Shown here: positions 10,529-30,217 of the stretch, one piece after another
How the letters are laid out: each line of letters starts with the position of its first letter
Position numbering within the stretch: the first letter of the stretch is position 1
Assembly: GCA_014649555.1 (NCBI GenBank)
Contig: BMTG01000014.1
Coordinates: 62,001 to 126,000, forward strand
Origin: Streptomyces globisporus
GTDB lineage: Bacteria; Actinomycetota; Actinomycetes; Streptomycetales; Streptomycetaceae
DNA: 64,000 bases
Direction of reading: 5' to 3'
Translations under genes and position numbers: made by a program
Notes under the pieces: model-generated
Told to the model about the DNA's origin: nothing
Seen by the model: the letters and a program-made list of their open reading frames with translations, nothing else
Databases searched by the model: none

Positions 10529-10602
10529 CGGGGTGTAGCGCAGCTTGGCAGCGCGCTTCGTTCGGGACGAAGAGGTCGTGGGTTCAAATCCCGCCACCCC
10601 GA
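10529..10602 (+). tRNA. tRNA-Pro (anticodon CGG)
   Basis: A cloverleaf can be drawn: acceptor arms CGGGGTG (10529-10535) and CACCCCG (10595-10601) with discriminator A, anticodon stem CTTCG/CGAAG around loop TTCGGGA (anticodon CGG, proline), and T-loop GGTTCAAATCC. The 3' CCA is not encoded. The 3' part from the anticodon loop onward is the integration target of the 20-kb element and is restored intact by the element's own attL sequence. Confidence 0.95.
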
Positions 10603-10610
10603 CAGCTGAG
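10561..10610. repeat. attL, 50-bp direct repeat
   Basis: This sequence is identical to 30791-30840. It begins in the anticodon loop of tRNA-Pro, includes the whole T arm and acceptor 3' strand, and runs 8 bases past the mature 3' end. The flanking bases differ on both sides, which defines the ends of the identity block. Confidence 0.95.
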
Positions 10611-10619
10611 TAGCAGGTC

Positions 10620-10652
10620 AGAGGGCCCTTACCGAATCGGTAAGGGCCCTCT
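10620..10652. terminator. Hairpin after tRNA-Pro/attL
   Basis: Perfect 16-bp arms, AGAGGGCCCTTACCGA (10620-10635) and TCGGTAAGGGCCCTCT (10637-10652). Placed between tRNA-Pro and the 3' end of int, it can terminate both. A hairpin of the same design but different stem sequence follows attR. Confidence 0.8.
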
Positions 10653-10697
10653 GGCGTTGCTGTGTGTCTATCTGCGTGACTATCGCTTCCTGCGTGC

Positions 10698-11867
10698 CTA
10701 CGGCTTCTGTGGGTCCGCGCCGAAGATGCCGTCCATGACGACGGCGCCCGTCTGGATCACCGGCCTGATCTGCTTCCGGTAGACCTCCTCGGTCACGGCC
10801 GTCCCCGAGTGACCGACGAGCCGGGAGATCTCCTCCAGCGGGACACCGCGGTCGGAGAGCAGTGACACAAAGCTGTGCCGGAGCTCCCGGGGCGTCCACT
10901 CGGCCGCGTCGACCCCGTCCACGTCCTTGAGCGCCTGGCGGAAGGCGCGACGGACGTTGGCAGCGTCGAGCGGCTTGCCGACGGCCGAGGAGAAAACGAG
11001 TCCGTGCTCCTCCCACTCGTCGCCGGCGGCGAGCCGATCCCAGCCCTGATCCTCGTACTGCCGCCAGAGCGCATCGATACAGCGTGACGGCAGGGCGAGC
11101 GTGCGCCGGGACTTGCGGGTCTTGGTGTCGCCGCTCCGCCGGACCGACCGCCAAACGGCGATGTGCGGAGGCTGCGCCGGGACCAGGTCGGGCCGTCCCT
11201 TGAGGAAGACGTGGTCCCAGGTGAGGGCCCGCAGTTCCTCGGTGCGGGCACCGGTCAGGAGGGCGACGACGATGTACGCGTACATCGAGGTTCCCTCAGC
11301 TCCCCGGAGAACGGCCTCCGCCTGGGCGAAGGTGAGGGCTTTCGAAGGCCGCCCGGACTGCCCCTGAGGCACCGAGCACAGCTCCACGACGTTCCGCTTG
11401 ACCTTGTCCCGGGCCATGGCCCGCTTGACCGCCCGGTTGAGGCAGGAGTGCAGGCCCTGAAGGGTGCGGGTGCTGAGCGTCCTGGACTTCTTGGCGAGCC
11501 AGCGGTCAACGTCTTCCGCGCTGAGATCGCGGAGCTTGCGGGCGCCGAGCGACGGAATGACGTGCTTCTCGCTGAGGAGCGTGGTCGTCGCGACGGTGCT
11601 CGGGTCGAGGCCGGCCAGACCATAGGCGAGCCAGTCCGTGACGGCGTCCTTCACGGTGTAGTTGGTCGGCGCGATGGCCAGACCGTCCTCGTGGTCGCGC
11701 AGCACCTCCTTGAGCTTGTTCTTCGCCTCGGTCTTGGTTCTGCCACTCCCCCGCTTCACGATCCGCTTCCCGCTCGGGTCGAAGCCGAGGTTCGCCGTGG
11801 CGATCCACCGTTGCCGCTTCTTGTCCCAGTGCAGGCCGCCGTCACCGCGACTACGTCGTTTCGTCAT
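10698..11867 (-). CDS. int: Tyrosine site-specific integrase
   Basis: A 389-residue tyrosine recombinase: an N-terminal Arm-type DNA-binding region, a core-binding domain around residues 65-160, and a C-terminal catalytic domain. Catalytic residues are visible: Arg in GARTEELR, Arg in ELRHS, His in LVGHSG and nucleophile Tyr near residue 363 in EEVYRKQ. The usual first His of HxxR reads Arg (PRELRH), a variant I recall in this actinobacterial family. It inserts the element into tRNA-Pro by recombining the 50-bp att site. Its stop lies about 90 bp from attL and its start overlaps the xis stop (ATGA at 11866-11869 region), so the two are co-translated from the repSA operon. Confidence 0.94.
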   Translation of the reverse strand: MTKRRSRGDGGLHWDKKRQRWIATANLGFDPSGKRIVKRGSGRTKTEAKNKLKEVLRDHEDGLAIAPTNYTVKDAVTDWLAYGLAGLDPSTVATTTLLSEKHVIPSLGARKLRDLSAEDVDRWLAKKSRTLSTRTLQGLHSCLNRAVKRAMARDKVKRNVVELCSVPQGQSGRPSKALTFAQAEAVLRGAEGTSMYAYIVVALLTGARTEELRALTWDHVFLKGRPDLVPAQPPHIAVWRSVRRSGDTKTRKSRRTLALPSRCIDALWRQYEDQGWDRLAAGDEWEEHGLVFSSAVGKPLDAANVRRAFRQALKDVDGVDAAEWTPRELRHSFVSLLSDRGVPLEEISRLVGHSGTAVTEEVYRKQIRPVIQTGAVVMDGIFGADPQKP

Positions 11868-20752: not shown

Positions 20753-21063
20753 CACCAACAGCAGCGGTCAAGGTCGAACCTCACCGACCGCCCAGCAGCG
20801 GTACAGCAGACTGTGACCGCCGTCGCCGTCCCTCTGTGATCGACCAGAGGATGATGAGGCGAGGCATCAAGGCCTTGGCCATCTGAGCGCGCTGGCCTCC
20901 GAGGTAGCCGGCGCTCTCACCCTCGCCTCGCTCAGTGAGACACCACGCATGGCTGTCGCTAGTGCACCCCGTCGAAGCTCGGGATGCGCCAACCCTGCCC
21001 AACCTTCGTCAACTTCCCTTAACCTCTCGACTAGTACCGCGACGAGGGGGACCGGAACATCAC

Positions 21064-22545
21064 ATGCAGGGACGTGTACTTGGTGAAGAGCGCCTCGATC
21101 CGTACGCCGAAGACCTCATCGAGTCGCTGCGCGCCTTTGGCTACGACCTACCGACGGCATTGGCCGACCTGGTAGACAACAGCATCGCTGCACGAGCCAA
21201 GAACGTACACATCTCGTTCTGCTCAGACCCTGGTCAGACTTGGGTGGCCATCGTCGATGACGGCACCGGTATGAGCGAACCTGAGCTCCACGCGGCCATG
21301 AGGTTCGCACGCAACCCGAGGCACCAACGAGCCGACGGGGACCTTGGACGATTCGGCTTGGGCCTCAAGACAGCATCCCTCTCTCAAGCACGAATGCTCA
21401 CCGTCCTATCCCGACACGCCGCTGGCTCACTTGCGGCGAGAACCTGGGACATTGACTACATAGCACAGCGCAAGGAATGGCTTGTACTCACAGAGCCTGA
21501 TCCTGAAGTCCTCCGCATCGCCGATCAAGTCGGATTCACTGGGCAAGGTACAGCAATCGTCTGGAGGAAGACGGACAAGCTCGGAGACGGCAGGACACTG
21601 TCCCGGAGAGTTTCGGACGCTGGACGCGAACTCGCCCTCACTTTTCACCGGTTCCTAGCATCGGGGCGCCTTAACTTGCAAATAGCACGCCAAGTGCTCG
21701 CCCCTTTGGATCCGTACCTCAGACGTCACCCCGCTACACAGGATCGGGGCGTTGAAGAGCTTACGGCCTCCGGACACTCCATACGAGTTAACCCAGTGGT
21801 TTTGCCTCATCCGTCTAGGCTGACGAAGAAAGAAACAACCCTGGTTTCTGGCCCCGGCGGCATGCTCGCACGCCAAGGATTCTACGTTTACCGAGGGGAT
21901 CGGCTGGTCGTAGCCGGGAGCTGGTTGGGGCTTGCAGGAATGCATAAGTCGGCACCGACTCGACTAGCCCGCCTGGCCCTTGAGATTCCTCCGAGAGTCG
22001 ACCTCGCTTGGGCAGTAGACGTTAGGAAGGCGACTGTACATCCTCCAGTCCAGCTTGAACCAAGGTTGATCGAGCTTGCTGAGGATGTACGAGCCAGATC
22101 CGAGAAAGTATTCACCCACCGTGGTGCTCCCGCTCGTGGTCACGGTAGGCGCGCTAGCGTCGAGCCCGTATGGCATCAAGTCCGCAGACTAGGGCAGTCC
22201 GAGTACTCCATCAATAGAGAACATCCACTCGTCGTGGCAGCGTCTTCAAGCCCCTCTTGCAAAACGATAGAAGGGGCACTTCGACTGATCGAGACCACGC
22301 TGCCTAGAGAGCTCATCGTTCAGGAAGCAGTCAACCACGCTACTGAACATGCTCCAGAGCAGGAAGGGAGCGAGCCTGACATGGAAGAAGTACTCGTCAT
22401 GCTTCGGTCGCTGCTGACAGGACTCCCCTCAGACCCAGCAGATAGAACCGCTCTAGCGGATGCCCTACTGAAATCCGAACCGTTCTGCCGGTATCCGGGC
22501 CTTGTTAAAGAAATCATCGAACAAGTTCCTCCCGAGGAGGCGTGA
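21064..22545 (+). CDS. mzaA: MutL/MORC-like GHKL ATPase of an Mza-type defence operon
   Basis: About 493 residues from the ATG at 21064 (MQGRVLGEERLDP); the longer frame from 20935 reads non-coding-like sequence. The GHKL ATP-binding motifs are complete: ADLVDNSIAA at ~34-43 (Asn39 metal ligand), IVDDGTGM at ~63-70, and GRFGLGLKTAS at ~95-105, followed by a MutL/MORC-type second domain. No zinc finger or endonuclease motif was seen. Iyer, Abhiman and Aravind (2008) described such ATPases in operons with Z1, AIPR and methylase genes, and Gao et al. (2020) named a related anti-phage system Mza. It is presumed to be the ATP-dependent clamp or sensor. Three bases separate it from the Z1 gene. Confidence 0.85.
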   Translation: MQGRVLGEERLDPYAEDLIESLRAFGYDLPTALADLVDNSIAARAKNVHISFCSDPGQTWVAIVDDGTGMSEPELHAAMRFARNPRHQRADGDLGRFGLGLKTASLSQARMLTVLSRHAAGSLAARTWDIDYIAQRKEWLVLTEPDPEVLRIADQVGFTGQGTAIVWRKTDKLGDGRTLSRRVSDAGRELALTFHRFLASGRLNLQIARQVLAPLDPYLRRHPATQDRGVEELTASGHSIRVNPVVLPHPSRLTKKETTLVSGPGGMLARQGFYVYRGDRLVVAGSWLGLAGMHKSAPTRLARLALEIPPRVDLAWAVDVRKATVHPPVQLEPRLIELAEDVRARSEKVFTHRGAPARGHGRRASVEPVWHQVRRLGQSEYSINREHPLVVAASSSPSCKTIEGALRLIETTLPRELIVQEAVNHATEHAPEQEGSEPDMEEVLVMLRSLLTGLPSDPADRTALADALLKSEPFCRYPGLVKEIIEQVPPEEA

Positions 22546-22548
22546 ACA

Positions 22549-25353
22549 ATGACGGATCTCACGGAGTCTGCCCTGATCCTTGCACGACAGAAGGTCTTTG
22601 ACCTTGAGAAGCACGAACGCACACGCGAGCGTTTCAAAGAGCTCGCACGAGGAGCCGCGGCCCTGCTTTCTGCAGCAGGGAGCGTTTCAGTAGAAGAGGT
22701 TACCCGGCGTCTGGAGGCAGAATTTGATGTCTGGGTCCCCCAGCCCATTGTAGTGAGCGACCCCGATGGCCACGTAGCTTGGTTGAAGGATAGGCGCCAG
22801 GATATCGAGTTCGCATACTGGAATCGCTACGCTGAATGGCTGAAGAAAGACTGGAAGCCGAGCACGGTAGAGGCTCTTGATGAAGCAACAGACCAGATCC
22901 TTGAACTTCTAGAGGATCCGGCACGATCCGGCGTCTGGAAGACCTACGGAATGGTCTACGGGCAGGTTCAATCCGGTAAAACGGCTAGTTACACAGGCTT
23001 GATATGTAAGGCTGCAGATGCCGGGTACCAAGTCATTGTTGTCCTAACAAGCCAGCATGAGAGCCTCCGCCACCAAACCCAGGCGCGACTTGATAAGGAA
23101 TTCCTTGGCTTCAACAGCAAGCTGAGCCGCAACCCGGATGCCGACAGCTCTGTCATCATCGGAGTCGGAACCTTGGGGATGAAGAAGCCTGCTATATGCC
23201 AGCCTGTAACGACTCAGGTCAGCGACTTCACCGCAGCCCAATTCCAAGGTACGCCGGTCAATATAAACGAGGTAAGCATCCTCGTAGTCGCCAAGAAGAA
23301 CGCCCGCATCCTTGGAAATCTCAAGGATTGGCTCGGTAACTTCTGCACGGAAGGCGAGGACCCTCGAAGCATCAAAAATATTCCACTTCTTCTTATCGAT
23401 GACGAAGCCGACTATGCTTCCGTCGATACCAAGCGCCCCAAAAAGGGCAGCAGCCAAAGCGATCCCGACCATGACCCGACCGCGATCAACAAGGCAATCC
23501 GCGGACTGCTGGATCAGTTCGATAAGCGAGCCTACGTAGCTTACACAGCCACCCCCTTCGCCAATATATTTATCCCGGACAAGACCAATCATCCTACTCA
23601 CGGCGAAGACCTGTTCCCGAAGAACTTTCTCGTGGCTCTGGAACCTCCCTCCAACTATTGCGGTCCGGAAGTCGTATTCGGCCTTGAAGATCCATCGGCC
23701 GCCGAGATCCGCGAGCCCCTCCCGATAACGCGCCCGGTGGATGACCACGAATACTGGCTACCCGATAGCCACAAGAAGGGTTACCGCCCTGGTAAGCAGC
23801 TACCGCCGTCACTCATTGAAGCTCTCGACGCTTTCGTGCTAGGCACTGCGGTCCGAAGGGTCCGGGCGAGGGACCATGACGTCGCCGGCGGACACAACAC
23901 TATGTTGGTCCACGTCACTCGTTGGACGGATGTACAGGGAGAGATTGCGCGTCAAATAGAGGGTCACTTGCAGGGCATGTCCGCCGAGTGGGGAGATTAC
24001 GGAAAGGCAGGACGCGAACTACGCGAGCGGCTACTGACGCTCTGGGAGGACGACTTTTCCCCCACCCACGATGAGATCGTCGGCCGAGATGACGTAAGCG
24101 CACTCGCTGGACCTCCAACTACATGGGAAGACCTGGAGGATTTCATCCCGCTGATCCTCGACGAGGCATCCTCCAATGTGAAAAGGATCAACGGCACGGC
24201 CGCCGATGTGTTGGAATATCAGTCGACCACCCCTGTTACCGTAGTGGCAGTGGGAGGAGACAAGCTATCTCGCGGCCTTACACTGGAAGGGCTGACGGTC
24301 TCCTACTATTTGCGGGCTTCCAAAACCTACGACACTCTCCTGCAGATGGGTCGCTGGTTTGGATATAGGTCCGGGTACCTGGATATCACCCGCCTGTACA
24401 CGACAACAGAACTTGTTAATTACTACGTTCACATCACTCGGGCGAACCGTGAACTGATGGACCTCACTGCAGCCGTATCCCGGGCACGCCAGACACCTAA
24501 GCATGTAGGGCTTCGTGTACTCGACGGGCAGGGGAACCTCCAGGTCACCGCGGCTACCAAAATGCGCTCATCGCAGGTGATGACGGTCAGTCTCTCCGCT
24601 AGCAGAGCTGAGACCCTGGTGATGCGAACGGACGAGGACGCGCAGGCTCAGAACTACAGCCGCCTTGAACGGCTAGTCGAAGCGATTGAGCCAGCCAGTC
24701 CCGTTCCTCAGGGCAAGCTGGAAGGAGCCGGCCGGGGCTTCTTCCGTCAAGACGTGCCGCCGCAGGCCGTCATAGAATTCCTCGAAGGCTTCCACGTATC
24801 CCCCCGAGTGCTCACTGCCAATCCAGAGAATTTGGTCCCCTACATCAAGAACCAAGTGGCTAAAGGCGAGCTAGTCCGCTGGACGGTAGCAATCACAGGC
24901 GGAGCCTCTACTGTTCCCTTGGAAAAACTCGGCGTGCCGCTAGTAAAGCGGCGGACGATCACACACTCCAGGGTACTCGACGGTGAGTGCGAGGTCGGCG
25001 TGCTGGTTAGCCCCGCACATGAGGCGATAGGCCTTACCTCGGACAAAGTGAATGAGGCATTCAACCTGACGGTCCAGGACTTCCTTGAAAGCGGCAAAGG
25101 TAGAGAGCCGAAGCGTGCCAGCGGGGAGTCATTGCGCAAGCTTCGCGACCCCAGCGAGGGCCTACTGTTGATTTACCCCATCGATCCCATCGCGTCCGAT
25201 ATAGAAGTCTCGGACTCGAATATTCCTATCGTAGGATACGCGGTCGTCTTCCCGCATTCCGAAAAAGCGAAGAAGGTTCGGTACCGCGTAAATCAGGTCT
25301 TCCTCGACGGCCTTCGGAAGGCTATCGAAGAGGATGCTGAGGGCGACGAGTGA
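22549..25353 (+). CDS. mzaB: Z1-domain superfamily II ATPase
   Basis: A 934-residue helicase-like protein. The nucleotide-binding motif GQVQSGKTAS lies at ~138-147, the Walker B IDDEADYAS at ~273-281, motif III-like AYTATPFANIF at ~321-331, and the Z1 signature LLQMGRWFGYR at ~597-607 preceded by GGDKLSRGLTLEG. These define the Z1 family of superfamily II ATPases found beside MutL/MORC-like ATPases. It probably translocates on or remodels DNA for the other Mza components. The start codon is 3 bp after the ATPase stop, and its TGA overlaps the start region of the next gene, so all four genes are co-translated. GC content and codon choice are clearly lower than in the flanking chromosome. Confidence 0.9.
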   Translation: MTDLTESALILARQKVFDLEKHERTRERFKELARGAAALLSAAGSVSVEEVTRRLEAEFDVWVPQPIVVSDPDGHVAWLKDRRQDIEFAYWNRYAEWLKKDWKPSTVEALDEATDQILELLEDPARSGVWKTYGMVYGQVQSGKTASYTGLICKAADAGYQVIVVLTSQHESLRHQTQARLDKEFLGFNSKLSRNPDADSSVIIGVGTLGMKKPAICQPVTTQVSDFTAAQFQGTPVNINEVSILVVAKKNARILGNLKDWLGNFCTEGEDPRSIKNIPLLLIDDEADYASVDTKRPKKGSSQSDPDHDPTAINKAIRGLLDQFDKRAYVAYTATPFANIFIPDKTNHPTHGEDLFPKNFLVALEPPSNYCGPEVVFGLEDPSAAEIREPLPITRPVDDHEYWLPDSHKKGYRPGKQLPPSLIEALDAFVLGTAVRRVRARDHDVAGGHNTMLVHVTRWTDVQGEIARQIEGHLQGMSAEWGDYGKAGRELRERLLTLWEDDFSPTHDEIVGRDDVSALAGPPTTWEDLEDFIPLILDEASSNVKRINGTAADVLEYQSTTPVTVVAVGGDKLSRGLTLEGLTVSYYLRASKTYDTLLQMGRWFGYRSGYLDITRLYTTTELVNYYVHITRANRELMDLTAAVSRARQTPKHVGLRVLDGQGNLQVTAATKMRSSQVMTVSLSASRAETLVMRTDEDAQAQNYSRLERLVEAIEPASPVPQGKLEGAGRGFFRQDVPPQAVIEFLEGFHVSPRVLTANPENLVPYIKNQVAKGELVRWTVAITGGASTVPLEKLGVPLVKRRTITHSRVLDGECEVGVLVSPAHEAIGLTSDKVNEAFNLTVQDFLESGKGREPKRASGESLRKLRDPSEGLLLIYPIDPIASDIEVSDSNIPIVGYAVVFPHSEKAKKVRYRVNQVFLDGLRKAIEEDAEGDE

Positions 25354-26342
25354 TGGCAGATAGTACACCAGAACAGCTCGAAGCGAACTTCACGGCAATT
25401 GAGGTCGAGGGCAGTAACCTTCCGGGGGCAGTCCGCCGGCGTCTCATGCCGGAATCCTCGATCGACGTCTTCACCGAAGTTCGATTTCCGAGCCGCGAGT
25501 GGGCCTTGTTGGTCCGCAGTACCGAAAGTACCGAAGATCGAGACTTGATGCTTGCGTCCGGCCTGGTTTGCCGCATTAGGGGCGGGTCCGTCGAAGTTGT
25601 CGCCGACCCAGGAACCGACCGATTGCTGTTCTGCACCCTCCTCGCTGATCTAGTCCGACAGCTTCAGATACATGCAACCCATCCCACCCTCGCTCTAGTG
25701 CGTCGCTTGAATGCATGGCGCAAGATGCTGGACAGAGGTCTATCTACCGGTCTGACACCGGAAGCACGTATGGGACTGTTCGGCGAACTCCTCATTCTGC
25801 GGGAGATCTTGCTCCCCGCTATCGGCACCGCGGCAGTAGCCGCGTGGGAGGGACCCTCGGGCGCTCCAAAGGATTTCACACACTTCTCGACCGCGATTGA
25901 GGTCAAGACTGTAGGTCGAAGAGGTGCCAATCATTGTCAGATCAGCAGCGAAGGCCAACTTGACGCTGACGCAACGACGAATCTCTTTCTCGTACACCAA
26001 GTGGTTTCAGTTTCACAGAGTGGTGTCTCGCTAATGGAGATCGTCGAGGAACTTCGTATGGACCCTCTGATACAGCCAGAACTGTCCCGCTTCGAAAACT
26101 GCTTGCTTGAAGCCGGATGGTTGGACAGCCACAGCCAGCAGTATGGCAACGATAGGTACGCGCTGAGTCGTCGACAATGCTTTCATGTCGTGGATGGGTT
26201 CCCACGACTGACTTCCTCGGCCTTGCCGTTCGGAGTGTCCCGGGTAACGTACAACGTCGACTTGTCGGCATGCGACGCATATAAAGTAGATGAGGGTGCT
26301 GTGCGGGCTTCCGTCACACTAGCCGGAAAGGCCAAGGAGTAG
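25353..26342 (+). CDS. mzaC: PD-(D/E)XK motif protein (DUF4420)
   Basis: About 329 residues from the ATG at 25353, which overlaps the Z1 stop by one base (TGATG); a GTG at 25350 is an alternative. A restriction-fold core is visible: Asp in PKDFTHF near residue 174 and the EVK motif in TAIEVKTVGRRG near residue 183-185, spaced as in PD-(D/E)XK nucleases, with an upstream glutamate in GLFGELLILRE. This matches DUF4420. It is the likely nuclease of the system. Three bases separate its stop from the AIPR gene (TAGCCGATG). Confidence 0.82.
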   Translation: MADSTPEQLEANFTAIEVEGSNLPGAVRRRLMPESSIDVFTEVRFPSREWALLVRSTESTEDRDLMLASGLVCRIRGGSVEVVADPGTDRLLFCTLLADLVRQLQIHATHPTLALVRRLNAWRKMLDRGLSTGLTPEARMGLFGELLILREILLPAIGTAAVAAWEGPSGAPKDFTHFSTAIEVKTVGRRGANHCQISSEGQLDADATTNLFLVHQVVSVSQSGVSLMEIVEELRMDPLIQPELSRFENCLLEAGWLDSHSQQYGNDRYALSRRQCFHVVDGFPRLTSSALPFGVSRVTYNVDLSACDAYKVDEGAVRASVTLAGKAKE

Positions 26343-26345
26343 CCG

Positions 26346-28106
26346 ATGGAGGAAATGCAGGCATTCTCCATCGCCCTGGAACAGGCGATTGAAGACTATC
26401 TTGGACGGGAACCTGGGTGGCTAAGGCGAGACGCTTTCGTTCGAGCAGCCGGCGACTACCTTGTAGAAGACGGAACGCTTGAGGACTTGGAAGTCTGCTA
26501 TTTCGCTCAACCCGTTGGACGCAGTCGCATGGAGGTCGCTGGCTACTCCGTCAGCGATGACGGACGTGTATTGGACCTCGTATCAGTTTATTACGGGGAA
26601 CACGGTCAGACAATCTCACGCGACCAAGTGAGGAGACGACTTAACTGGACGAAGTTGTTTGCGTCCGCTTGCCATGACGGACATCATCTACGCATGGAGG
26701 AGTCGAGCCCTCAATTCGACATGGTTCAGGATATCTATTCGAGGTGGCGACATTTCGGCAAGATCAGAATCTTTCTTCTAACTGACGGTCGGAGCACCCT
26801 GCAGGATTTGCCTGCAGAGGAACTCAACGGCCTACCTATAGTCCCCAATCTCTGGGACATCGAGCGTCTCCGGCGTCTCGCCAGTTCGGGCCGTCAAGAG
26901 GAACCGATCTCAATCGACTTCGAAGAGTTCGGTGGACCGCTGCCATGCCTGCCAGCCCCCAGCTCGGAAGGGGACTACCAATGTGTACTCACCTTGATGC
27001 CAGGCAAATTGCTTGCAGACATGTACGAGCTCCACGGTTCCAAATTGCTACAGAGAAACGTTAGAGCGTTCCTGCAAGCACGAGGCAAGGTCAATAAGGG
27101 AATTAACGAAACCATCCGAGAAAGGCCCGACCGATTCCTTGCCTACAATAACGGCATTTCGGCTACGGCCACGGGGGCGACTTTTGAGCAGAGAGGTAGC
27201 GAGACCTACCTCCTCCACCTCAGCGACCTACAGATCGTTAATGGCGGGCAGACTACAGCCTCGCTCCACCATGCCGCTATCCGCGATGATGCCGACCTTA
27301 GCAAAATCCAGGTACCGGCGAAAATCACTGTGGTGCAGCCCGAGCTACTAGATCAGCTGGTCCCAAACATCTCGCGCTACGCCAACTCTCAGAACTCGAT
27401 CAACGAAGCGGATTTTGAGGCTAATAGCCCGTTTCATGTCGAGCTCGAACGCATGTCCCGAAGTGTTTGGGCACCCGCGGTCGCGGGCTCTACCCGCCAA
27501 AGCCGGTGGTACTACGAGCGTGTGCGAGGGCAATACAACGTAGATAGAGCCCGACGGCACACGGCTGCAAAGCAGAGGTCGTTCGATGAAGAGTTCCCTC
27601 GCGGACAGCGATTCTCTAAGACCGACGCGGCCAAGTATGACCTTACGTTTCGACAGCTACCTCATGTCGTCAGTTTGGGGGCTCAGAAGTGTTTTCAGTG
27701 GTGGACACTAAATGTGCTCGCGGAGTCTACCAGCGTTCCTGATGAAGGATACTTCCAAGCACTCGCGGCAAAGAGGATTGTGTTCGAGCAGGGGCGTGCA
27801 GAGATCAGGAAGTTGAACCCCGGCGCCGGATACCTGGCCAACGTCACGGCCTATACGCTGGCTCGACTTGCTGCAGAAGTCGATTTGGACGACACCCTAG
27901 CGACGGTGTGGAGGACGCAAGGGCTTCCAGACAGCATCCGGCGAGCCGTGACTGAGCTGAGCCGGCCTGTCCGGCAAGTCCTCCTAGCCGCCCCCGGCTC
28001 AGGGAACGTCACCGAATGGTGTAAAAAGGAAGACTGCTGGAAGAGTGTGCTGGACATCTCTTTGGCCAGTCCGCTGGCCAAGGTAGCCACGCAGGTTGGG
28101 AAGTAG
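26346..28106 (+). CDS. mzaD: AIPR family protein
   Basis: A 586-residue protein with the AIPR (abortive infection phage resistance) signature: FLAYNNGISATA at ~264-275 and LQIVNGGQTTASL at ~295-307, followed by QVPAKITVV and NISRYANSQNSINEADF. The N-terminal ~200 residues contain a PD-(D/E)XK-like pattern region (QPVGRSRMEVAGYSVSDDG...), which I cannot confirm as catalytic. AIPR proteins occur in phage-defence loci and may act as effector nucleases. The gene is coupled to its upstream neighbour and is followed by a 236-bp gap before the methyltransferase. It lacks frameshifts and is of normal length. Confidence 0.88.
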   Translation: MEEMQAFSIALEQAIEDYLGREPGWLRRDAFVRAAGDYLVEDGTLEDLEVCYFAQPVGRSRMEVAGYSVSDDGRVLDLVSVYYGEHGQTISRDQVRRRLNWTKLFASACHDGHHLRMEESSPQFDMVQDIYSRWRHFGKIRIFLLTDGRSTLQDLPAEELNGLPIVPNLWDIERLRRLASSGRQEEPISIDFEEFGGPLPCLPAPSSEGDYQCVLTLMPGKLLADMYELHGSKLLQRNVRAFLQARGKVNKGINETIRERPDRFLAYNNGISATATGATFEQRGSETYLLHLSDLQIVNGGQTTASLHHAAIRDDADLSKIQVPAKITVVQPELLDQLVPNISRYANSQNSINEADFEANSPFHVELERMSRSVWAPAVAGSTRQSRWYYERVRGQYNVDRARRHTAAKQRSFDEEFPRGQRFSKTDAAKYDLTFRQLPHVVSLGAQKCFQWWTLNVLAESTSVPDEGYFQALAAKRIVFEQGRAEIRKLNPGAGYLANVTAYTLARLAAEVDLDDTLATVWRTQGLPDSIRRAVTELSRPVRQVLLAAPGSGNVTEWCKKEDCWKSVLDISLASPLAKVATQVGK

Positions 28107-28342
28107 CCGATGTCCAAGCTGGCTGCTCATGCGGCCCGCGACAGGGGCAGTGCCCAACGTCAGAGACTGCGTCGTCCAACTAGCCACGCACCTCTTGGGA
28201 GGTGCCCGCTCCAACGAACAGTTGTGCACTTGGTGTTGAGCTGCGGCATCCTTCTGTTGTGTCACCTGCATGAAGGGCTTGTCTGGGGCAGCCGACTGTG
28301 TTGTCCTGGTGGGCGTCGTTGGAGCAATAAGAGGAGGCCTGG
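28107..28342 (+). other. Intergenic gap between AIPR and methyltransferase genes, with a short relic frame
   Basis: AIPR ends in TAGCCGATG, the same junction that joins the two preceding genes, and an ATG at 28110 opens an 83-codon frame (MSKLAAHAARDRGSAQRQRL...) that overlaps the methyltransferase start in another frame and loses coding character after ~30 codons. A hairpin with GCACCTC/GAGGTGC arms lies near 28188-28205. The gap may hold a decayed sixth gene, an attenuator, or a separate promoter for the methyltransferase. Confidence 0.4.
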
Positions 28343-30217
28343 GTGTCGTTCTACGGGGTGAAGCTGCATCGCAGCGACGCACTCCAGCTCGACGAGCATC
28401 CTGACGCTTGTACCGAGGAGACCTTCGCCGCTTGGTGCAAAGGCCGGGCCAGCTCCGGAGCACGTCTGGCCGTCGACCTCTTCTCTGGGGCCGGCGGCCT
28501 GAGCCTTGGACTCGAACATGCGGGATGGACTGTCGCTGCTTCGGTCGACTCGGACCGGCGCGCTCGGGAGACACACCGGGCGAACTTCCCCGGGCTAGCT
28601 CTGGGAACGGACTTGGGTGACACCGAACAGCGGCGCCAGCTCATCTCCTTGTTGCAACAGGCGCCTATCGATCTGATTGCAGGTGGCCCTCCTTGTCAGC
28701 CGTTCAGTCGCGCTGGGCGGAGCAAGATCAAGAGTCTGGTCGAGGCTGGCAAGCGTGACGAGAACGATCTACGCAAGGAGCTCTGGCGCGCCTACCTAGA
28801 TGTGGTGCTCCAAGTTGGCCCACGTGCGGTTCTCATGGAGAACGTCCCGGACATGGCACTCGGCGACGACTTCCACGTTGTTCGAACCATCGTTGAGGCT
28901 TTGGAGGAAGATGGCTACTTCACCGAAGTGCGCTTGGTCGACGCCTGGCAGTATGGGGTCCCGCAGCATCGCAAACGGTTGATCGTCCTGGCTCGCAACG
29001 ACAGCGCTAACTTCACTTGGCCAGCTTCAACAGACCCGGTCCATCTCAGGCAAGCCATTGGTGATCTCCCCACACTTGGCGAAGAAAAGCCCATGGGCGA
29101 TCGCATGTTGCCATATCAATTTCCGTCCGACGCCTCTGACTTCATGACGCTCATGAGGAAGGAGGTTGACGATCCGGGCATCGTTCATGATCACATGACT
29201 CGACCAGTGCGCGCCGACGACCTAGAGGTCTTTAAGCGCATGGACCACAAGACCCTGTACTCGGATATCCCCGAGCACCTTCGACGCTACAAGGCCGACA
29301 CTTTCGACGATAAGTACAAGCGTCTTCATTGGGACAATTACAGTCGCTCTATCACTGCCCATATCGCGAAAGACGGATACTGGTACATCCACCCCGAAGA
29401 GCACCGGACTCTTACCGTACGTGAAGCAGCGCGGATTCAGACCTTCCCGGATGACTTTCGCTTTTCGGGAACACGAAGCGACGCATTTCGGCAGATTGGA
29501 AATGCTGTGCCACCCCGTCTGGGGGAGGCGGCGGCCACTGCCTTGAAACCAGCTGATGCTGAGCAGCCCGGCCAGAATCAGTGGAAGGCGCTGCACCAGG
29601 CGCTTGCCGCGTGGGGGCGCCAGCAGCGTAAGGGGAGGTCTTGGTTCCTCTATCCGGGGCCGCACGTCCAGCAAGCCGTCGCGCTCGTCGTTTCTATGCT
29701 CGGTGCCGAGCGTATAGGAACACGCAACCTCGAGTGGGCTGTCCAGCGCCTTAAGGACCGCCCGAAGCTGACTTCCAAAGAGCTGCAGCAGCTCTATGCG
29801 GCCGTCGAAGACCCCAAAATGCTTAAGCGCATGGAGCGGATTGAGGTGCTGACTTCGAAGCGCAACATTTGGCAAGACACTGACGAGCTAGCTGTCCAGC
29901 TCAAATTGAGGCCTGCAGAAACAGCCATATTCAGGCTACTAATGGGCGAGGATGTCATGCTGCCTCAGCAGGGCCCATTGCGTGTCGCTGCAAGGGTGTT
30001 TGCAAGCAAGTCGGACCGCACCAATAGGCTGACTGATGGTCGCATTGAATTGGCCCGACTTATTGGTGGTGGGGTCGATGCGCCGGTCCGTATGGCCGCC
30101 TTGAGGCAGTTGGCGAACACGAATTGTCTTCCCAGCGAACCATATTGTGCCAGCTGTCCCCTGCTAGAATGGTGCCGATCAGCTGAGGACCGTGGTGCCA
30201 GCGATCGGCTTTGCTGA
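28343..30217 (+). CDS. mzaE: C5-cytosine methyltransferase fused to a degenerate endonuclease III-like domain
   Basis: A 624-residue protein from the GTG at 28343, with GAGGAGG 5 bases upstream. Residues ~40-395 are a complete C5-methyltransferase: DLFSGAGG (45-52), GGPPCQPFS with catalytic Cys118, ENV (166-168), QHRKRL (208-213), RE near 360 and GNAVPP (386-391). The remaining ~230 residues are not part of the usual enzyme. They include a helical region, an HhH-like KLRPAETAIFRLL, a MLPQQGPLRVAARVF segment resembling the VDTHxxRVxxR stretch of endonuclease III, and a perfect C-x6-C-x2-C-x5-C motif (Cys595, 602, 605, 611). The glycosylase catalytic Lys and Asp are not conserved, so the domain may only bind DNA and an iron-sulfur cluster. 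It probably marks self DNA for the Mza operon. Confidence 0.88.
   Translation: MSFYGVKLHRSDALQLDEHPDACTEETFAAWCKGRASSGARLAVDLFSGAGGLSLGLEHAGWTVAASVDSDRRARETHRANFPGLALGTDLGDTEQRRQLISLLQQAPIDLIAGGPPCQPFSRAGRSKIKSLVEAGKRDENDLRKELWRAYLDVVLQVGPRAVLMENVPDMALGDDFHVVRTIVEALEEDGYFTEVRLVDAWQYGVPQHRKRLIVLARNDSANFTWPASTDPVHLRQAIGDLPTLGEEKPMGDRMLPYQFPSDASDFMTLMRKEVDDPGIVHDHMTRPVRADDLEVFKRMDHKTLYSDIPEHLRRYKADTFDDKYKRLHWDNYSRSITAHIAKDGYWYIHPEEHRTLTVREAARIQTFPDDFRFSGTRSDAFRQIGNAVPPRLGEAAATALKPADAEQPGQNQWKALHQALAAWGRQQRKGRSWFLYPGPHVQQAVALVVSMLGAERIGTRNLEWAVQRLKDRPKLTSKELQQLYAAVEDPKMLKRMERIEVLTSKRNIWQDTDELAVQLKLRPAETAIFRLLMGEDVMLPQQGPLRVAARVFASKSDRTNRLTDGRIELARLIGGGVDAPVRMAALRQLANTNCLPSEPYCASCPLLEWCRSAEDRGASDRLC

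Follow-up and report, generated by a model that had tools for sequence, protein, structure and literature searches.

Why should a DNA methyltransferase end in the remains of a DNA repair enzyme? A gene of Streptomyces globisporus poses this question. It lies in a 64,000-nucleotide stretch of contig BMTG01000014.1 (assembly GCA_014649555.1, positions 62,001 to 126,000), called the window here, and window coordinates count from its first letter. By sequence, the gene product is a C5-cytosine methyltransferase fused to a pseudo-glycosylase. Our analysis suggests that a worn-out repair domain has been retained here to handle DNA, not to repair it. The gene and its parts are as follows.

28343..30217, + strand: C5-cytosine methyltransferase, 624 aa from a GTG start, whose C-terminal tail is a degenerate HhH-GPD domain of MutY/TDG type
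28472..29545, + strand: methyltransferase domain, residues 44-401, Pfam C5 methyltransferase match
29570..30193, + strand: HhH-GPD-like tail, residues 410-617, from the predicted model and profile homology
29894..29932, + strand: helix-hairpin-helix remnant, residues 518-530 (VQLKLRPAETAIF), hairpin glycines lost, Glu526 at the Lys/Tyr site
29963..29995, + strand: former catalytic loop, residues 541-551 (PQQGPLRVAAR), Gln542 at the Asp site, Gly544 at the Asn site, Arg547 and Arg551 (cluster-side) retained
30023..30043, + strand: NRLTDGR segment, residues 561-567; 21 close tails all have N561, R562, G566 and R567
30125..30175, + strand: four-cysteine iron-sulfur loop, residues 595-611, C-x6-C-x2-C-x5-C

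The fusion protein

A Shine-Dalgarno-like AGGAGG stands 5 bases upstream of the GTG. The N-terminal domain contains DLFSGAGG, GGPPCQPFS, ENVP, QHRKR and GNAVPP (386-391), which we take to be C5 methyltransferase motifs, and solved enzymes of this class match the full-length predicted model over about residues 37-408. With conserved motifs that include PCQ and ENV, and with a DNA_methylase domain, the protein is by sequence a C5-cytosine DNA methyltransferase of predicted activity.

C-terminal of residue 401 Pfam gave nothing significant. NCBIfam mutY touches the tail (E 7.4e-4), a single-sequence search of PDB returned mammalian MUTYH (E 0.013), and a five-row profile returned human MUTYH (E 3e-5). 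The predicted model of the tail has the all-helical HhH-GPD fold, and profile homology agrees. Judged by this model the tail belongs to the HhH-GPD superfamily by fold and ancestry, and its fold is closer to that of MutY and thymine-DNA glycosylase than to that of endonuclease III. A preliminary description of the window had proposed a degenerate, endonuclease III-like tail with an intact iron-sulfur motif on the methyltransferase. Apart from the likeness to endonuclease III, which gives way to MutY/thymine-DNA glycosylase, fold model, profile homology and cysteine loop bear the proposal out; the structure prediction and fold search it called for returned an HhH-GPD fold, not an unrelated one, and GNAVPP and C595-x6-C602-x2-C605-x5-C611 were found again at their places in the 624-aa frame.

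The catalytic domain of MutY/MUTYH has the Asp, its Asn partner and the hairpin glycines, all replaced in the window tail, and is not fused to a methyltransferase. MutY has a further domain C-terminal of the cysteine loop, whereas the window tail stops after this loop. PDB entry 1kea, a thermostable thymine-DNA (G-T mismatch) glycosylase, is a separate active enzyme, unlike the tail, which is fused and without catalytic residues.

Catalytic and cluster residues

In the profile alignment Gln542 takes the place of the catalytic Asp, Gly544 that of the Asn and Glu526 that of the hairpin Lys/Tyr, as expected from the earlier statement that the catalytic Lys and Asp are replaced. Arg547 falls on the Arg that corresponds, in a mapping made here, to MUTYH R241 and MutY R149; a passage of PMC12000561 has these residues take part in a link from the cluster to the catalytic Asp. 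Neither Asp nor Glu stands at the catalytic Asp site in any of 32 tails (31 parsed tails and that of L179), or in any of 30 loci of the same genus, a set overlapping the 32. Among 12 diverse tails the residues of the catalytic loop vary, those at the Asp site being Q, G, N, S, R, K or T; R547, R551 and all four cysteines are invariant in 12/12.

The window tail has the cysteine loop of iron-sulfur HhH-GPD proteins (Nth/MutY/TDG type), and from its sequence it appears to keep a predicted [4Fe-4S] site. The exact C-x6-C-x2-C-x5-C recurs in 24/24 relatives and in 30/30 genus loci, which were chosen by the tail profile and overlap the 24; the parse of 31 tails required the cysteine pattern, so the counts rest on these two sets. 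A tail from Synechococcus has x5 as its first spacing.

By alignment, then, the tail demonstrably lacks the canonical catalytic residues, and it is probably inactive as a glycosylase. The earlier term 'catalytically degenerate' holds for those residues and is likely, though not certain, to be right in full, since Glu526 is E in 20/21 close tails (in 7/12 diverse tails and 0/4 of the deepest). The residue deserves attention because a Glu in the corresponding position is indispensable to Sis-HhH-GPD, whose Asp is replaced by Ser. That protein (PMC11754123) resembles the window tail in having no Asp and a Glu at the Lys place; as the relevant passages of the paper describe it, it is a stand-alone active glycosylase, whereas the tail is fused.

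Selection on the tail

The tail is under purifying selection. Its ratio of non-synonymous to synonymous substitution rates (dN/dS) is 0.12-0.27 in 15/15 pairs, compared with 0.05-0.16 for the methyltransferase in the same pairs, which were preselected among 19 sequences and share sequences, so that they are not independent.

Distribution and origin

The tail profile matched in 30/392 genomes of the genus, every time on a methyltransferase frame. The 22 tail loci in named genomes are mostly from Streptomyces, with others from Nocardiopsis, Kitasatospora, Micromonospora and Actinacidiphila. Beyond the named genomes tails were found in two other Actinomycetota families (L183, L186) and twice in genome G683; a tail methyltransferase is also encoded on a Synechococcus elongatus plasmid. 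A wider profile matched 46 of 396 genomes of the phylum at E 1e-6. The six genomes above 55 bits carry tail methyltransferases, and the three examined among the 40 below 45 bits (L227, L228, L229) have ordinary separate HhH-GPD proteins. One search kept the best 80 of 169 relatives, and flanks are short at many loci.

In a tree of the methyltransferase domain (61 rows) the 17 tail rows fall together in a single clade, with a value of 99 in the approximate likelihood ratio test (SH-aLRT), and the tail label needs one change, so a single fusion suffices. This is a quick tree with SH-aLRT values only, taken from the 61/115 loci whose frame passed a motif filter (L053 and L122 were dropped by it), and it carries long-branch warnings, L227 being among the flagged rows. 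No four-cysteine tail was found in 62 other methyltransferase frames, and none of the fused tails read still holds the Asp.

An unfused arrangement exists. A separate HhH-GPD gene with intact Asp lies directly 3' of the methyltransferase gene in 2/80 viral loci (L053, L122) and in an Actinomycetota genome (L227, genome G775); the two genes share ATGA in L122, and the open frames overlap in L227. In Methanothermobacter a GGCC methyltransferase comes with the gene for a T:G glycosylase. An adjacent pair of this kind may have fused once and then lost the catalytic residues. One fused tail is much shortened: that of L226 (5934-7685, +), counted from motif X through its final Cys, has 148 residues, versus 220-253 for the 30 others that were parsed. 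The L226 tail has lost most of its six-helix part and retains RVxxR and the four cysteines.

Genomic neighbourhood

Upstream of the methyltransferase, in the same direction, lie four genes.

20935..22545, + strand: MzaB-like GHKL/MutL-type ATPase, 351 bits (equivalog cut-off 850)
22549..25353, + strand: MzaC homologue, 669 bits (cut-off 1500)
25350..26342, + strand: MzaD-like PD-(D/E)XK DUF4420 protein, 132 bits (cut-off 420)
26346..28106, + strand: MzaE-like AIPR protein, 386 bits (cut-off 1050)

The locus is an Mza-like system. Homologues of MzaB, C, D and E stand in the same order as in the MzaABCDE anti-phage system, but all four score far below the NCBIfam equivalog cut-offs, and PMC9523054 gives mzaA as a sigma factor, so the methyltransferase is not MzaA. 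On both counts its earlier assignment to Mza proper has to be dropped. The gene set matches a 'Type II' putative defence system of the same paper, whose section on that system does not mention an HhH-GPD tail and gives DUF4220 where Pfam finds DUF4420 in the window. The MORC/paraMORC restriction-modification neighbourhoods of PMC2292703 likewise combine a GHKL ATPase with cytosine methylases, Vsr and AIPR; 'HhH' is absent from the main text of that paper.

A gap of 236 bp (28107-28342) separates the end of the MzaE-like gene from the start of the methyltransferase, and no promoter-like site was found in it. Across this gap, membership in one operon with the MutL-like ATPase, as first proposed, is no more than a possibility, and the methyltransferase may have its own expression. 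Some 1.7 kb to the left of the window is an HhH-GPD gene (C14:59932-60327), which scores highest among the four matches of the genome.

MzaB-E homologues adjoin the tail methyltransferase at 21/22 named loci, the stretch at L026 being too short to tell, and at 20 of those 21 they are oriented towards it. Between MzaE and the methyltransferase there is a Vsr-like gene in 21/22 named loci (confirmed by Pfam in L040) and a short AbrB/MazE-like gene in 20/22. The Vsr-like gene of L040 is at 10575-11441 (-); in L035 and L037 the match to Vsr is broken into pieces. At the window and L039 the methyltransferase lies downstream of the Mza-like genes in the same direction, with no adjoining Vsr. The sole Vsr match of the window genome is on another contig, beside a second MzaC-like gene. 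This place (L178, C9:160000-179900) is a second Mza-like locus of the genome and holds Vsr, MzaC-like and MzaD-like genes and two tail-less methyltransferases.

The suggested survey of Mza-linked methyltransferases for the same tail gave a divided answer. Five MzaC-like loci of the phylum search have a tail methyltransferase (the window, L179, L183, L186, L187) and five a tail-less one (L178, L181, L184, L185, L188); no methyltransferase was found at L180, L182 and L189.

Nearest to the window methyltransferase among the tree rows is that of a phage contig (L043, IMG/VR contig 3300009506_000035, 4959-6977), which has the tail and a terminase gene nearby. Neither MzaC nor Vsr was found on this 58-kb contig, whose record may be a fragment, nor MzaB, MzaD or MzaE within about 5 kb, the stretch searched. 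Possibly this methyltransferase is phage self-protection against an Mza-like system.

Role of the tail

Retention of the tail on the phage contig without MzaC or Vsr points to a function within the methyltransferase molecule itself, and speaks against a strict need for Mza partners. The simplest such function would be DNA binding. The tail would then be the DNA arm of the enzyme, its catalytic residues lost and the cluster cysteines and Arg kept; we prefer this reading to the others but rate it slightly less likely than not. The tails of the window and its seven closest relatives, 8/12 in alignment A5, are basic (isoelectric point, pI, 8.4-9.5).

Several observations weigh against a DNA arm or against the history given above. 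Where LPGVGxxTA would be expected the window has LKLRPAETA; the hairpin glycines are gone here and in close kin, with one glycine kept in L179, L186 and L194, and since these glycines grip the backbone in the HhH-GPD fold their loss is awkward. So are the 3/12 acidic tails of A5 (pI 5.0-5.6), as five intact glycosylases are all basic (pI 8.4-9.9). Compared with the methyltransferase, the tail has a dN/dS higher by a factor of about 1.4-3.4, which indicates looser constraint, and NRLTDGR could be a protein-binding face. The residue map of the N-terminal half of the tail is unsure because alignment A3 of close kin aligned only the last 87 columns (A3 holds 21/25 tails, the near-copies L026, L028, L034 and L036 being omitted; A6 holds 20). 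The L053, L122 and L227 glycosylases illustrate the unfused state, and the closest kin of the tail may be others. Nor can Vsr account for all cases, since the window and L039 keep the tail with no Vsr adjoining.

The tail might instead be a mismatch or damage sensor, recognizing T:G or a related lesion without excision and handing it to Vsr or MzaB, with methylation thus coupled to repair or defence; it would then detect the T:G lesion that arises from the enzyme's own mark, or mispairs in replicating phage DNA. The modelled MutY/TDG-type fold, the GHKL/MutL-like ATPase within the locus, the Vsr-like gene at nearly all named loci and the similar neighbourhoods that PMC2292703 describes in its main text are what such a sensor would lead one to expect, but the tail persists on a phage record with no MzaC or Vsr, two methyltransferases have no Vsr beside them, and the catalytic-loop residues vary, so that we consider a sensor rather unlikely. 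The link between modification and the MutL-like ATPase that the preliminary description drew gains no direct support here. A scheme in which a 5-methylcytosine writer carries a non-cutting iron-sulfur T:G reader that passes a signal to Vsr or to the MutL-like ATPase, and thereby couples marking, repair and attack, seems to us improbable. The same holds for a protein-docking or folding module that would hold partners or stabilize the methyltransferase without touching DNA: the N, R, G and R of NRLTDGR are invariant in 21/21 close tails, Mza-like genes adjoin, and some tails are acidic, but the phage tail does without MzaC and the kept cysteines and both Arg suit the end that faced DNA in the original fold.

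By analogy with Sis-HhH-GPD, where passages of PMC11754123 have E134 required and S152 at the Asp place dispensable, the tail could still be a glycosylase with unusual chemistry through Glu526. The constancy of this Glu in close tails fits, but it fades in diverse and deepest tails, the hairpin glycines are lost, and it is only in the cluster half that the profile of the close tails resembles intact enzymes; we regard this as quite improbable. The preliminary description had proposed a redox-active or damage-sensing module, and the cluster might accordingly signal damage along DNA. Invariant cysteines and cluster-side Arg in the diverse rows are compatible with it, but a purely structural cluster would predict the same residues equally, and we consider redox signalling very unlikely. 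Hardly credible is a neutral remnant heading for loss, for all that the catalytic residues are gone, the tail evolves faster than the methyltransferase and one tail (L226) is shortened: the low dN/dS in all chosen pairs makes neutrality unlikely, and the cysteine motif is exact in every genus locus.

Significance

The titles, beginnings of abstracts and passages returned by searches of the open-licence literature, which leaves subscription journals largely uncovered, describe no bacterial methyltransferase-HhH-GPD fusion. The cysteines of the cluster and the associated Arg have outlived the canonical catalytic residues in Streptomyces and other Actinomycetota as well as on a Synechococcus plasmid and on a phage contig. 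If the tail is indeed a DNA arm, a defence locus that is poorly understood would offer, in its methyltransferase, an additional part to test, and the fusion would be a natural experiment on the purpose of the iron-sulfur cluster in HhH-GPD repair enzymes.
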